DNA of 64,000 nt from Chelativorans salis. Lineage in GTDB: Bacteria > Pseudomonadota > Alphaproteobacteria > Rhizobiales > Rhizobiaceae. Below, piece after piece: positions 5,593-34,487 of the stretch. Positions within the stretch are counted from its first letter, which is position 1, and every line of letters begins with the position of its first letter. A program made the translations under genes and the position numbers. The notes under the pieces were generated by a model that saw nothing but the letters and a program-made list of their open reading frames with translations, was not told the origin of the DNA and made no database searches. Location: assembly GCF_025336525.1 (NCBI RefSeq), contig NZ_JAOCZP010000008.1, positions 62,001 to 126,000 of the forward strand, given 5' to 3'.

Positions 5593-5612
5593 GGAAAGCT
5601 TGCGGCAGGCTT
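5593..5612 (-). promoter_or_regulatory. Candidate Rem/FtcR operator upstream of the flgJ-like gene
   Basis: Read in the direction of the gene, the site is AAGCCTGCC-GC-AAGCTTTCC: two 9-nt half-sites with 11-nt periodicity and the core CGCAAG. It lies 44-63 nt before the GTG start. It is one of seven such elements in the flagellar region (see the first finding). Binding by the cluster's OmpR-family regulator is an inference. Confidence 0.5.
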
Positions 5613-5626
5613 GCTCGGCTTGCTGT

Positions 5627-6010
5627 TCAACGCTCGCGCTGGTGTTCCAGCATCTCCAGCACGGCTTTTTCCTCGGCCGCCCTTTCGTGGCTGCGCACGG
5701 CGCTCGTGTGGGCGCGCTCGGCCACATCCGCGCGCGCGCCGGCGGCGGCGACCATGGTGGCCTCCTCGGCAGCCCGCGCGAGGCTCTTCTCCCTGCGGGC
5801 AAGGGCGCGGGCGATGCGATCGTGATAGAGCGCGGGAAAGAGGGCCGCCAGGCTGTCTGGCGCGTCCAGGCGCCCGGCAAGCTCGGCTGCCTCGGCTTCG
5901 GCCGCGGCCGCTTCCTTCAGATGCGCGGCGCGGCGCGCCTCGTGCAGCTCCTTGAGCCGCTCCTGCAGTTTCACGAGCCGTGCCAGCCTTTGCCGTCTGT
6001 CCGTCGTCAT
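5627..6010 (-). CDS. FliJ-like coiled-coil flagellar protein
   Basis: The 127-residue protein is almost entirely predicted coiled coil. It is rich in alanine, glutamate and arginine, with repeats such as KLQERLKELHEARRAAHLKEAAAAEAEAAELA. FliJ is a small coiled-coil protein that links the FliI ATPase to the FlhA export gate. Size, composition and position directly after fliR fit this role, but coiled coils are hard to assign by eye. The gap from the fliR stop is 4 nt, so it is translated from the flhA-fliR message or one starting at fliR. Confidence 0.55.
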   Translation of the reverse strand: MTTDRRQRLARLVKLQERLKELHEARRAAHLKEAAAAEAEAAELAGRLDAPDSLAALFPALYHDRIARALARREKSLARAAEEATMVAAAGARADVAERAHTSAVRSHERAAEEKAVLEMLEHQRER

Positions 6011-6014
6011 CGCC

Positions 6015-6761
6015 TCATCCGCCGATCGTGGTTGGGAAGAAGCCGTCGGCGAAGAGGCGCAGGAAGGTGCCGATGCCGAAGTAGAGGAGCATCAAGCCGC
6101 CGGCGATGACGAAAGGCAGCGAGATGAAGTAGATGGGGATTTGCGGTGTCAGCTTGTTGATGAAGCCGATGGCGAGGTTGACCAGGATTGCATAGGCCAC
6201 GAAGGGGCTGCCGAGCCGTATCATCACGAAGAAGGCCGCGGAGAGCGTGTCGGAGAGGTCGACAAGCGCCGATTGCGGATTGAACAGCGCATCGACGGGC
6301 GCCAGCCTGTAGGAGGCCACCAGCGCCTGGATGATGGCGTGGTGGAAATCGAACACGAAAAGCAGAAGCAGCGCGGAAAAGGAGATGAGGGTGGCGACTT
6401 CCGGCTGCGGCTCGTTCTCCTCCACCGCCACGCCGCCGCCGGCCATGCCGTAGCCCATCATCATCGCCATGGCGGCGCCGATGAACTGGAGCGCCAGCAC
6501 GTAGAAGCGCGCGACGAGGCCGATCAGCGCGCCGATGAGGAGCTCCGAGCCGATGAGGACGAGCATTGTCTGGGGCTGGCGCGAGACATGGGGCACGATC
6601 GCCTCCCACAGATGCGCGAGCAGCGCCAGCGAGGCGCCGACGGCGACGAAGAGGCGCACTTGCGCGGGAACGCGGGCGCTGCCGAGGCCCGGCAGGAAGA
6701 GGAAACAGGCGCCGATGCGGCAGAATGCGAGGAAGGCGGCGAGGATGGCGGTTTCCAGCAT
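6015..6761 (-). CDS. fliR: Flagellar export gate protein FliR
   Basis: FliR is part of the FliPQR core of the flagellar type III export gate in the inner membrane. The 248-residue protein starts MLETAILAAFLAFCRIGACFL and has five to six hydrophobic segments. The family motif region SFSALLLLFVFDFHHAIIQALVASYRLAP is present around 145-175 and the AIGFINKLTPQIPIYFI segment is near 205-222. Length matches the family (about 250). It follows flhA after a 237-nt gap filled with palindromic repeats. No Rem-type site was found in that gap. Confidence 0.95.
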   Translation of the reverse strand: MLETAILAAFLAFCRIGACFLFLPGLGSARVPAQVRLFVAVGASLALLAHLWEAIVPHVSRQPQTMLVLIGSELLIGALIGLVARFYVLALQFIGAAMAMMMGYGMAGGGVAVEENEPQPEVATLISFSALLLLFVFDFHHAIIQALVASYRLAPVDALFNPQSALVDLSDTLSAAFFVMIRLGSPFVAYAILVNLAIGFINKLTPQIPIYFISLPFVIAGGLMLLYFGIGTFLRLFADGFFPTTIGG

Positions 6762-6817
6762 GGGTTACCGCATTCGCCCATGGGGTGGGGGAGAGGGAAC
6801 GATCGCACTCTTTCGAG

Positions 6818-6862
6818 CCCCCCTCTGTCCTGCCGGACATCTCCCCCACGAGGGAGGAGATT
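6818..6862 (+). repeat. Dispersed palindromic repeat, copy A
   Basis: This element begins with a CCCCCCTCTGTCC block and continues into a CTCCCCC-type palindrome. Its first 32 nt recur as an exact reverse complement in copy B, 6943-6974. Together the copies form a large inverted repeat between flhA and fliR. A related core lies inside the acetyltransferase gene at 2281-2307. Confidence 0.8.
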
Positions 6863-6929
6863 GCGCTGGCCGGTTGCTCCGGCACCTGTTCTGTAGCGCC
6901 GGCGGTTGGCGAAAGCCGATGCGGCGGCT

Positions 6930-32890: not shown

Positions 32891-33609
32891 CAGGAGCCCA
32901 TCGTCTTGATGGCGTCCTTCATCGAGGTGTCACTGTCGCGCATCAGGGCGGTGACCTGCTCGAAGGCGCGCTGCACCTGGATGAGGCGCATCATCTCCTG
33001 GACGGCGTTGACGTTGGAATCTTCAAGGAAGCCTTGCGCCACGCCGACATCCGGCTGGTCGACCACCGGCTGCGGTTGCATGCCCGGCAGGAAGCCGGAA
33101 TTGCCGTAGCGCTGGGCGTTGGGGCCGGGCGTGAAGGCGAAGAGGCCGATGGCGCCGAGAAGCTGGCCGTTCTGGCGCAGCGTGCCGTCGGCCCCGGCCT
33201 CAGGCGGGCCGGCCTGCGGGTCGAGCACCAGTGGTGCGCCGCCCGCGTCGAGCACGGCGTGGCCTTCCAGCGTGACCAGCTCACCCGTCTCGAGCATCGT
33301 GAAGCGGCCGTCGCGCGTCATCATCGGTCCGGCCGGAGTCTCGACGGCGAACCAGGCGTTGCCCTGCACGGCAAAGTCGAAAGGGTTGCCGGTCTCCTGA
33401 AGGCCGCCGGCCTGCGTGTCGTAAAAATCGTCGCCGGCGGAGACGAAGCTTACTGATTTGTCGGTGAGCCCGCTCATCACATCGTCGAAGGTGATGCCGC
33501 CGGCGCGGAAGCCGACGGTGCCTGCGTTGGCGACATTGTCGGCAAGCGTCGTCAGCCGCCGCTCCAGCGCCATCTGAGAAGACAGGGCGACGTAGAGTCC
33601 GGTCTGCAC
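32890..33609 (-). CDS. flgF: Flagellar proximal rod protein FlgF
   Basis: FlgF is a rod subunit. The 239-residue protein opens MQTGLYVALSSQMALERRLTTLADNVANAGTVGFRAGGITFDDVM. The end is VDQPDVGVAQGFLEDSNVNAVQEMMRLIQVQRAFEQVTALMRDSDTSMKDAIKTMGS, as in FlgF/FlgG proteins. It lies between the DUF1217 gene and fliI. Confidence 0.95.
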   Translation of the reverse strand: MQTGLYVALSSQMALERRLTTLADNVANAGTVGFRAGGITFDDVMSGLTDKSVSFVSAGDDFYDTQAGGLQETGNPFDFAVQGNAWFAVETPAGPMMTRDGRFTMLETGELVTLEGHAVLDAGGAPLVLDPQAGPPEAGADGTLRQNGQLLGAIGLFAFTPGPNAQRYGNSGFLPGMQPQPVVDQPDVGVAQGFLEDSNVNAVQEMMRLIQVQRAFEQVTALMRDSDTSMKDAIKTMGS

Positions 33610-33612
33610 GGT

Positions 33613-34389
33613 CTATTTCCTCATTTGGGCAATGGTCAGGAGAACATCGGTCGAGATGCCGAATTCGGCGGGCTGGGTGAAAAGCGCGGCGATGGAGCTT
33701 TGCGCGTTGTTGCTCGGGTTTTCGACCTCCCAGAGTGCGGTGAAGCGCTTAAGGAAATTGTCGAGCTTCTCGGGGTCCTGAAAATCCGCGAGGTCGATCC
33801 GGGCCTTGAACATCTCGACCTGCTTGTCGATGTCGGCCTGGGCAAGCTGATCGGGAAAGCCGAGCGCGGTGCGCACGACCTGCGACATGGCGGGGTCGGC
33901 CAGCACCTCGTAGAAGGACTTCAAGCTGCCGGCCTTGCGCTCGAAATAGAGGGCCAGGCGCACGCCTTCGTTCTGCTTGCCGGCATCTTCCTCGAGCGAT
34001 TGGCGCAAATATTTGTCGACCGTGCCGGTTGTGGGACTGTAAAAGCTCGTTGTTTCCGCGCCGTATCGGGCGAAGTTAAAGGTTTTCACGAAGTCTTTGT
34101 AGCGCTTGTCGGTGAGCTTGTTGGCGAAGCTGTCCTTGTCGTCGATGCCCTCTTCCAGCGCCTTGACCATCAGGGCCTTGGCGTAGGCCATGTCGTCCAG
34201 CCCATGCGCCTTCATCGCGTAGCGGAAGAGGCGGTCGTCGGCGACGAACTCCTCGATCGACTTCACGTTCTCGATATTGGCGCGGTAATACTCGGTCTCG
34301 CGGCTCACGATCGGCTGCGCTTCGATGCGGCTGATGGACTGGGCCATGTCGCGCGTTATCAGCTGATAGCTCGTGTAGGTGTTGATCAC
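33613..34389 (-). CDS. DUF1217 flagellar-cluster protein
   Basis: The 258-residue soluble helical protein matches the DUF1217 family, found mainly in alphaproteobacterial flagellar clusters. The N-terminus INTYTSYQLITRDMAQSISRIEAQPIVSRETEYYRANIENVKSIEEFVADDRLFRYAMKAHGLDDMAYAKAL is typical. The function is unknown. I chose a GTG start with GGGAG 6 nt upstream. A TTG five codons earlier is the alternative. The gene heads the unit with flgF, fliI and the membrane protein, and has a Rem-type element 38-57 nt upstream. It is divergent from motA. Confidence 0.8.
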   Translation of the reverse strand: MINTYTSYQLITRDMAQSISRIEAQPIVSRETEYYRANIENVKSIEEFVADDRLFRYAMKAHGLDDMAYAKALMVKALEEGIDDKDSFANKLTDKRYKDFVKTFNFARYGAETTSFYSPTTGTVDKYLRQSLEEDAGKQNEGVRLALYFERKAGSLKSFYEVLADPAMSQVVRTALGFPDQLAQADIDKQVEMFKARIDLADFQDPEKLDNFLKRFTALWEVENPSNNAQSSIAALFTQPAEFGISTDVLLTIAQMRK

Positions 34390-34426
34390 GCCCGGCTCCC
34401 GCAATTCCGTGGAATGAAGCTAGCGA

Positions 34427-34446
34427 GCCTGCCTTGTGCGAAGCTT
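34427..34446 (-). promoter_or_regulatory. Candidate Rem/FtcR operator upstream of the DUF1217-flgF-fliI unit
   Basis: In the gene direction the site reads AAGCTTCGC-AC-AAGGCAGGC, with the core CACAAG. The far half-site is the perfect consensus. It ends 37 nt before the GTG start, exactly the spacing seen at fliF. Confidence 0.5.
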
Positions 34447-34467
34447 TCTTCGGCCTGTCGCCCTTTC

Positions 34468-34487
34468 AAGCCTCACGCAAGCCACGG
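34468..34487 (+). promoter_or_regulatory. Candidate Rem/FtcR operator upstream of motA
   Basis: The site reads AAGCCTCAC-GC-AAGCCACGG on the plus strand, with the core CGCAAG, 43-62 nt before the motA GTG. It is the only copy in plus orientation, and it serves the only plus-strand flagellar unit. This match of orientation to gene direction is good evidence that the element is functional. Confidence 0.5.

Follow-up and report, generated by a model that had tools for sequence, protein, structure and literature searches.

The DNA analysed here, called the window below, is a 64,000-nucleotide stretch of the genome of the soil bacterium Chelativorans salis (contig NZ_JAOCZP010000008.1, positions 62,001 to 126,000; contig C18 in our numbering, in a 5.66-Mb genome of 19 contigs), and it carries a flagellar gene cluster from ~5 kb to 39 kb in which gene identities were assigned by Pfam and NCBIfam profile matches. 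Our subject is a set of seven 20-bp elements located before flgJ, flhA, flgE, fliF, flgB, the DUF1217-flgF-fliI unit and the motA-fliM-fliN-fliG-flhB unit, together with Rem, an OmpR-type regulator encoded in the same cluster (Table 1). Rhizobial-type flagella are known to be under the master activators Rem, FtcR and LafR, and the first-pass annotation of the window had proposed the elements as a candidate regulon code for this regulator. The closest named relatives we found were Chelativorans species with Rem 96% identical, although records of the genome itself may have been left out of that comparison.

Table 1. Elements, associated hexamers, regulator gene and neighbouring features in the window. 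Distances run from the element end to the start codon.
Feature	Position	Strand	Remarks
Rem box, flgJ	5593-5612	-	core 5604-5599; 43 nt to start; variant AAGCCTGCC GC AAGCTTTCC
-10-like hexamer CATAGT, flgJ	5583-5588	-	10 nt after core
Rem box, flhA	9118-9137	-	core 9129-9124; 31 nt to start
-10-like hexamer TATCCT, flhA	9108-9113	-	
Rem box, flgE	16266-16285	-	core 16277-16272; 45 nt to start; genome-wide best match to model R1
-10-like hexamer TAGTCT, flgE	16256-16261	-	
Rem box, fliF	23665-23684	-	core 23676-23671; 37 nt to start
-10-like hexamer TAGTCT, fliF	23655-23660	-	
Rem box, flgB	30823-30842	-	core 30834-30829; 36 nt to start
-10-like hexamer TAGCCT, flgB	30813-30818	-	
Rem box, DUF1217-flgF-fliI	34427-34446	-	core 34438-34433; 37 nt to start
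-10-like hexamer TAGCTT, DUF1217	34417-34422	-	
Rem box, motA-fliM-fliN-fliG-flhB	34468-34487	+	core 34476-34481; 42 nt to start; divergent from DUF1217 box
-10-like hexamer TACTTC, motA	34492-34497	+	weak: TA present, final T absent
rem/ftcR, aspartate-less OmpR-type regulator	16306-16977	-	PF00486 E 2.7e-16; PF00072 E 1.4e-7
CtrA-like TAA-N7-TTAC	17051-17064	-	74-87 nt before rem start
SLT lytic transglycosylase ORF	17103-17807		flanks rem
MarR-family regulator	3275-3913	-	directly outside flagellar cluster
AI-2E family transporter (PF01594)	9485-10549	+	between fliQ and flhA, on the opposite strand
fliQ	10963-11229		

All seven elements lie at the coordinates and on the strands first given for them, and in each the core CRCAAG is invariant and the two 9-nt half-sites are separated by AC or GC. 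Start codons, taken as the best-looking of the listed candidates as we picked them, follow at 31-45 nt, in agreement with the 31-46 nt first claimed. The box consists of a pair of CAAG-like half-sites at an 11-bp period, separated by TCR, and it keeps a constant helical phase to a -10 element described below. The repeat is imperfect, with 5-7 of 9 matches per window element and a poor upstream half at fliF, and the flgJ element is a variant in which GCC replaces TCR before the core; its form AAGYCTGC-SRCAAGCTT recurs before flgJ in 13 of the 16 relatives listed for that gene. Over the seven elements the half-sites agree at 41 of 63 positions versus 16.4 +/- 3.5 (largest 30) in 20,000 random 7-tuples, a test that is weak taken alone because the sites were originally chosen by the same property. 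A self-match of 60 relatives' sites over offsets 7-15 peaked at 11 (4.57 of 9), followed by 3.32 at offset 10, and tandem half-sites about one helical turn (11 bp) apart are what defines an operator of the OmpR/PhoB type. The pho box of PhoB likewise has two direct-repeat half-sites 11 bp apart that end 10 nt before the -10 and replace the -35; the window box has the same half-site period, gap and -35 replacement, but differs in that its half-sites are of the CAAG type and in that Rem lacks the phospho-acceptor aspartate. FeuP and CtrA are also OmpR-type regulators. Their sites in Sinorhizobium meliloti (TAA-N7-TTAAC for CtrA and the candidate TTCA-N7-TTCA for FeuP; PMC3616915) share the tandem design and 11-bp period with the window box, which is distinguished from them by its CAAG-like half-sites and the conserved TCR between; three de novo motifs described in the same paper are unlike it as well.

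The first-pass annotation had overlooked a -10-like hexamer that stands 10 nt past CRCAAG in every element. It has the form TANNNT at five of them, with TACTTC at motA and CATAGT at flgJ, and CATANT occupies the place of the flgJ hexamer in 9 of the 13 relatives that carry the flgJ box variant. In 234 distinct elements from relatives, which were found through the upstream part alone, TANNNT occurred at the 10-nt gap in 213, and the other gaps from 4 to 18 yielded a single count, at 16. The distance from core to start codon in 237 strong sites had a median of 51 nt (interquartile range 49-58). A fixed box-to-hexamer distance with the box replacing the -35 is the geometry of a class II activated promoter, and the complete unit is a predicted promoter of the form CMAGCYTCRCRCAAG-N10-TANNNT, with the 11-bp tandem box in the -35 region.

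The elements stand out from the remainder of the genome. When 40-column matrices were built leaving one site out and scored over 127,922 window positions, five of the seven held-out sites ranked 7th, right behind the six training sites, while flgB ranked 11th and flgJ 79th. We also built R1, a sequence-only covariance model that contains no window site and rests on 59 sites from relatives (65 were selected, and five flgJ sites and one divergent flgE site were left out); it leans towards the window's form because its training sites were chosen by window-matrix score. In a genome-wide scan with R1, in which 150 of 2864 first-look candidates were scored, the six best matches were six of the seven elements (18.7-27.6 bits, E 1.4e-5 to 0.010) and the next match reached 13.6 bits (E 0.44). 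The exact pattern YTCRCRCAAG-N10-TA, written after the sites had been seen, has five matches in the window versus 0.02 expected and six in the whole genome, five of them in the cluster, versus two for the reversed pattern. The first-pass proposal thus came through the genome-wide check it had called for.

Since R1 holds the orthologous promoters of congeners, a cross-gene test in relatives was stricter. For each gene we scored the upstream regions with matrices in which only the remaining genes' window sites were used, and counted the loci that exceeded the 99% level of a masked null, in a panel of 100 relatives' loci made up of 20 genomes and 80 named loci, with at least six genomes present twice. 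Matches were found before flhA in 53 of 56 loci, flgE in 94 of 97, fliF in 85 of 86, flgB in 15 of 17, DUF1217 in 8 of 10, motA in 10 of 10 and flgJ in 17 of 34, so that the expected conservation upstream of the same genes was observed, and a repeat run agreed within 2 per gene. Without the duplicates (L088, L089, L090, L091, L096, L107) the counts were 88/91 for flgE, 79/80 for fliF and 48/51 for flhA. Control upstream regions gave no match before flgD (0/74), flgK (0/97), flgL (0/97), motB (0/85), fliP (0/32, leaving out L104, L108, L109 and L149, whose stretches end before the gene start), fliI (0/14), flgI (0/17), flgC (0/17), fliM (0/7), fliG (0/9) or flhB (0/8), and those of flbT (1/98) and flaF (3/99) were near zero. 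The flgG row (78/97 above the null) was dropped as a paralogue artefact because in 80 of 97 loci the flgG match falls within that of flgE.

The conservation extends to other families. In ten other-family genomes with Rem 52-65% identical, the box was present before motA in nine, before flgB, flgE, fliF, flhA, DUF1217 and flgJ in some genomes each, and before flaA in four; most cores lay 45-60 nt from the start, those of flaA 144-189 nt. Box-like sites 144-189 nt upstream of flagellin occur in several lineages (e.g., L140, L132-L134, L152, G189, G051, G068 and G239), and in the panel the flaA upstream region carried a box in 10 of 85 loci, mostly Mesorhizobium, with core CGCAAC. We found no box before flagellin in the Chelativorans window or genus, nor before rem in the window. 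The first-pass statement that the element is absent before rem and flagellin, as a tier model predicts, therefore held for this genome, but as far as flagellin is concerned it is lineage-dependent, and the flaA boxes count against a universal tier rule.

The occurrence of the box also follows that of Rem. We scored 26 candidates per genome in 249 genomes of the order, none of which gave training sites under its own label, although Mesorhizobium-like ones may overlap named training loci. At E≤0.005, 49 genomes had both box and Rem, none had the box only, 23 had Rem only and 177 had neither; at E≤0.02 the corresponding numbers were 56, 10, 16 and 167. All 49 box-bearing genomes at the stricter threshold thus have Rem, and the box was found in 0 of 177 Rem-less genomes, ~119 of which are flagellated as judged by FlhA at E≤1e-130 (187 FlhA genomes minus 68 with Rem). 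FlhA itself falls into two classes, one of at least 59% identity in 66 genomes, with Rem in 66/66, and the other in 121 genomes with at most 50% identity among the matches listed; since the first class always occurs with Rem, Rem travels with one lateral-type flagellar system. In a separate panel of 41 relatives, 21 had a clear Rem ortholog, and in 19 of these the best R1 match had E≤6.3e-4, a result that is partly circular because most of the 19 supplied training sites; the exceptions were G016 (E 0.027, an 85%-complete assembly) and G025 (E 0.075, Rem 46%). No R1 match below 0.05 was seen in nine genomes with flagellar FlhA and without Rem (G026, G029-G031, G034-G038). A single matrix with a cut of 14 detected 54 sites across the 400 kb of ten Rem clusters; it detected no site in 197 kb covering the second flagellar clusters of five dual-flagellum genomes, nor in 160 kb from four flagellar clusters that lack Rem. 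Among the best 95 matches in other Rem genomes (E≤0.0048), 75 lay within 40 kb of rem or of the lateral-type flhA, and the other 20 included three before motA elsewhere, one before an MCP-domain receptor and one before a HAMP receptor. At E≤0.005, then, the box is limited to Rem genomes and to the Rem-linked flagellar system, as expected of a regulon.

As had been noted from the sequence, the OmpR-type Rem/FtcR is encoded within the cluster, and its product combines a Trans_reg_C domain with a degenerate receiver. In 17 aligned Rem sequences the DNA-binding domain is highly conserved and column 51, which in our alignment by eye fits the phospho-acceptor, is Ala in 17/17; with its aspartate-less receiver the protein belongs to the Rem family. 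The gene is flanked by the SLT lytic transglycosylase open reading frame (ORF) and flgE, and ftcR of Brucella locus I is reported to have the same neighbour order of SLT transglycosylase and flgE (PMC7410920). Rem has been reported to activate class II genes directly and, being aspartate-less, to be active without phosphorylation (PMC9812332), LafR likewise to need no phosphorylation (PMC8429497), and FtcR to bind upstream of fliF, a result credited to Leonard et al. (PMC9456535). With the Rem/FtcR/LafR systems of Sinorhizobium, Agrobacterium, Brucella and Bradyrhizobium the window thus has in common a cluster-encoded ortholog, overlapping target genes and an aspartate-less receiver.

We consider it highly likely that the seven elements with their hexamers are operator-promoters of the middle flagellar genes that Rem activates; the genome specificity, the conservation and the joint occurrence with Rem support the regulon-code reading, which we amend from a box to a whole promoter. 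Rem very probably turns on swimming by acting on this DNA box. In the mechanism we propose, a Rem dimer (FtcR in Brucella, LafR in Bradyrhizobium) would occupy both half-sites on one face of the helix at the place of the -35 and recruit the housekeeping RNA polymerase, whose sigma factor would read the -10, and the resulting transcripts would have short leaders of roughly 15-30 nt. Because the Rem receiver has no phosphorylatable aspartate, output should depend on how much active Rem there is and not on its phosphorylation. The DUF1217 and motA boxes stand back to back (34427-34487) with cores 38 bp apart and serve divergent promoters, an arrangement that recurs in several relatives and may allow cooperative binding.

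A number of observations weigh against assigning the box to Rem. The lateral-type cluster is passed on as a whole, Rem included, so that co-occurrence cannot single Rem out among co-inherited proteins, and the genome has 15 further OmpR-type regulators above the Pfam cut-off, as well as the MarR-type one just outside the cluster. At E≤0.005 the box is lacking in 23 of 72 Rem genomes (16 at E≤0.02), ten Rem-less genomes show a weak match at E≤0.02, and Rem-less G014 has a match at E 0.0079, the best of the Rem-less genomes in the 41-relative panel. The flgJ element scores only 5.4 bits with R1, and we regard it as a weaker, conserved variant; the motA -10 is weak, TANNNT at the 10-nt gap is missing in 21 of 234 elements, and flagellin carries the box in some relatives. 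Finally, the motif TGTGGGCA reported for Brucella FtcR by chromatin immunoprecipitation sequencing (ChIP-seq; PMC9456535) is unlike the box described here.

The most serious alternative is that the box serves as operator for a different DNA-binding protein that is co-inherited, either of the OmpR type or an unannotated protein of the cluster, with Rem acting upstream of that protein. Joint occurrence does not tell Rem apart from the other proteins that come with the lateral-type cluster, the additional OmpR-type regulators are encoded elsewhere in the genome, and several cluster ORFs have no Pfam match. However, among the cluster proteins scanned, which do not comprise every ORF, Rem was the sole protein with a DNA-binding domain (the MarR-type regulator lies outside), an 11-bp tandem box is typical of OmpR/PhoB-type proteins such as CtrA and FeuP (PMC3616915), and direct activation of class II genes has been reported for Rem (PMC9812332), so that we rate this alternative as unlikely. 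Less probable still, in our view very improbable, is that the element is an activator-free -35/-10 promoter of an alternative sigma factor. Its spacing to TANNNT is indeed fixed, TANNNT is a poor housekeeping -10, and the -35 position 17 nt upstream falls on a conserved AGCYTC; but the conserved block is ~15 nt long with an internal 11-bp repeat, its strongest part, CRCAAG, lies 10 and not ~17 nt from the hexamer, the TA...T form suits the housekeeping sigma factor, and a known activator explains the same genes. That the similarity is due to chance, codon use or a repeat family, as might be suspected of sites chosen by eye in one window, has a negligible probability and is ruled out by the genome-wide, cross-gene and cross-family tests, with the fixed gap and the absence from the controls examined contradicting it as well.

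Returning to Rem as the activator, we considered how the box relates to published motifs. The first-pass annotation knew of no published consensus for this regulator, which is not entirely accurate, since the Brucella FtcR motif TGTGGGCA, found at 118 of 363 ChIP-seq sites, is in print (PMC9456535), but that motif does not match the sites. In the window, TGTGGGCA has one match (25734-25741; 1.77 expected) and none at the seven sites, and it is therefore ruled out as a shared motif; either FtcR has diverged or TGTGGGCA reflects other features of the ChIP peaks. Apart from TGTGGGCA, we found no operator-promoter consensus for the Rem family in the literature surveyed, which included PMC8639532 and PMC12632262; the founding Rem paper, which lies outside this survey, may print one.

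The region upstream of rem presents a different picture. Autoregulation of rem through the box found no support, as 1 of 100 rem upstream regions matches (2 of 100 in the repeat run). The CtrA-like TAA-N7-TTAC before rem is a candidate input of the gene, and in aligned relatives it is followed by a conserved leader (GTTGT...GATTC...TACCTCTTGG...AACTGATTCGG). A TAA-N7-TTA[AC] motif within 160 nt upstream was found for rem in 18 of 100 loci and for flaA in 25 of 85, and for none of flgE, fliF, flhA or six internal genes. A CtrA motif has also been noted at rem of S. meliloti, where ChIP-seq showed no binding of CtrA to rem (PMC4433202).

Several further observations concern neighbouring or related genes. 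The opposite-strand AI-2E family transporter gene between fliQ and flhA separates flhA off as a unit of its own. A second FlhA-like protein (36% identity) is encoded elsewhere in the genome (G000:C15:262748-264778) and probably belongs to another type III secretion-type system; FlhA-like matches at 32-35% identity were also seen in five of the relatives G001-G015. In genome G018 a DUF1217 protein with three matched stretches (L181:1764-3101) is encoded off the main cluster, and the box-like site that precedes its gene agrees with a flagellar role of the DUF1217 family. Box-like sites in distant Rem genomes also precede genes for an MCP receptor, a HAMP receptor and a GGDEF protein (L257, L241 and L191); the L191 site has core CCCAAG and the L257 site has no TANNNT at the 10-nt gap, and these genes are candidate lineage-specific members of the regulon.

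As to what the finding means, box and -10 together may form a rigid class of promoter, shared across the order, that marks out the lateral-type flagellar regulon under its aspartate-less activator and keeps this regulon insulated where the cell has a second flagellum. As phosphorylation is not required for Rem, the regulon as a whole would respond to how much Rem is present, and in this genus that quantity may be controlled via the CtrA-type site before rem; other lineages would have the box at flagellin, at chemoreceptors or at a motA elsewhere in the genome as well. We regard this wider proposal as evenly balanced. A promoter consensus that predicts targets genome-wide would make the direct regulon testable promoter by promoter, and the box offers a natural experiment in which two flagella are kept apart in one cell. 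Box and Rem together would also make a pseudo-receiver regulator with a rigid promoter geometry tractable to study.

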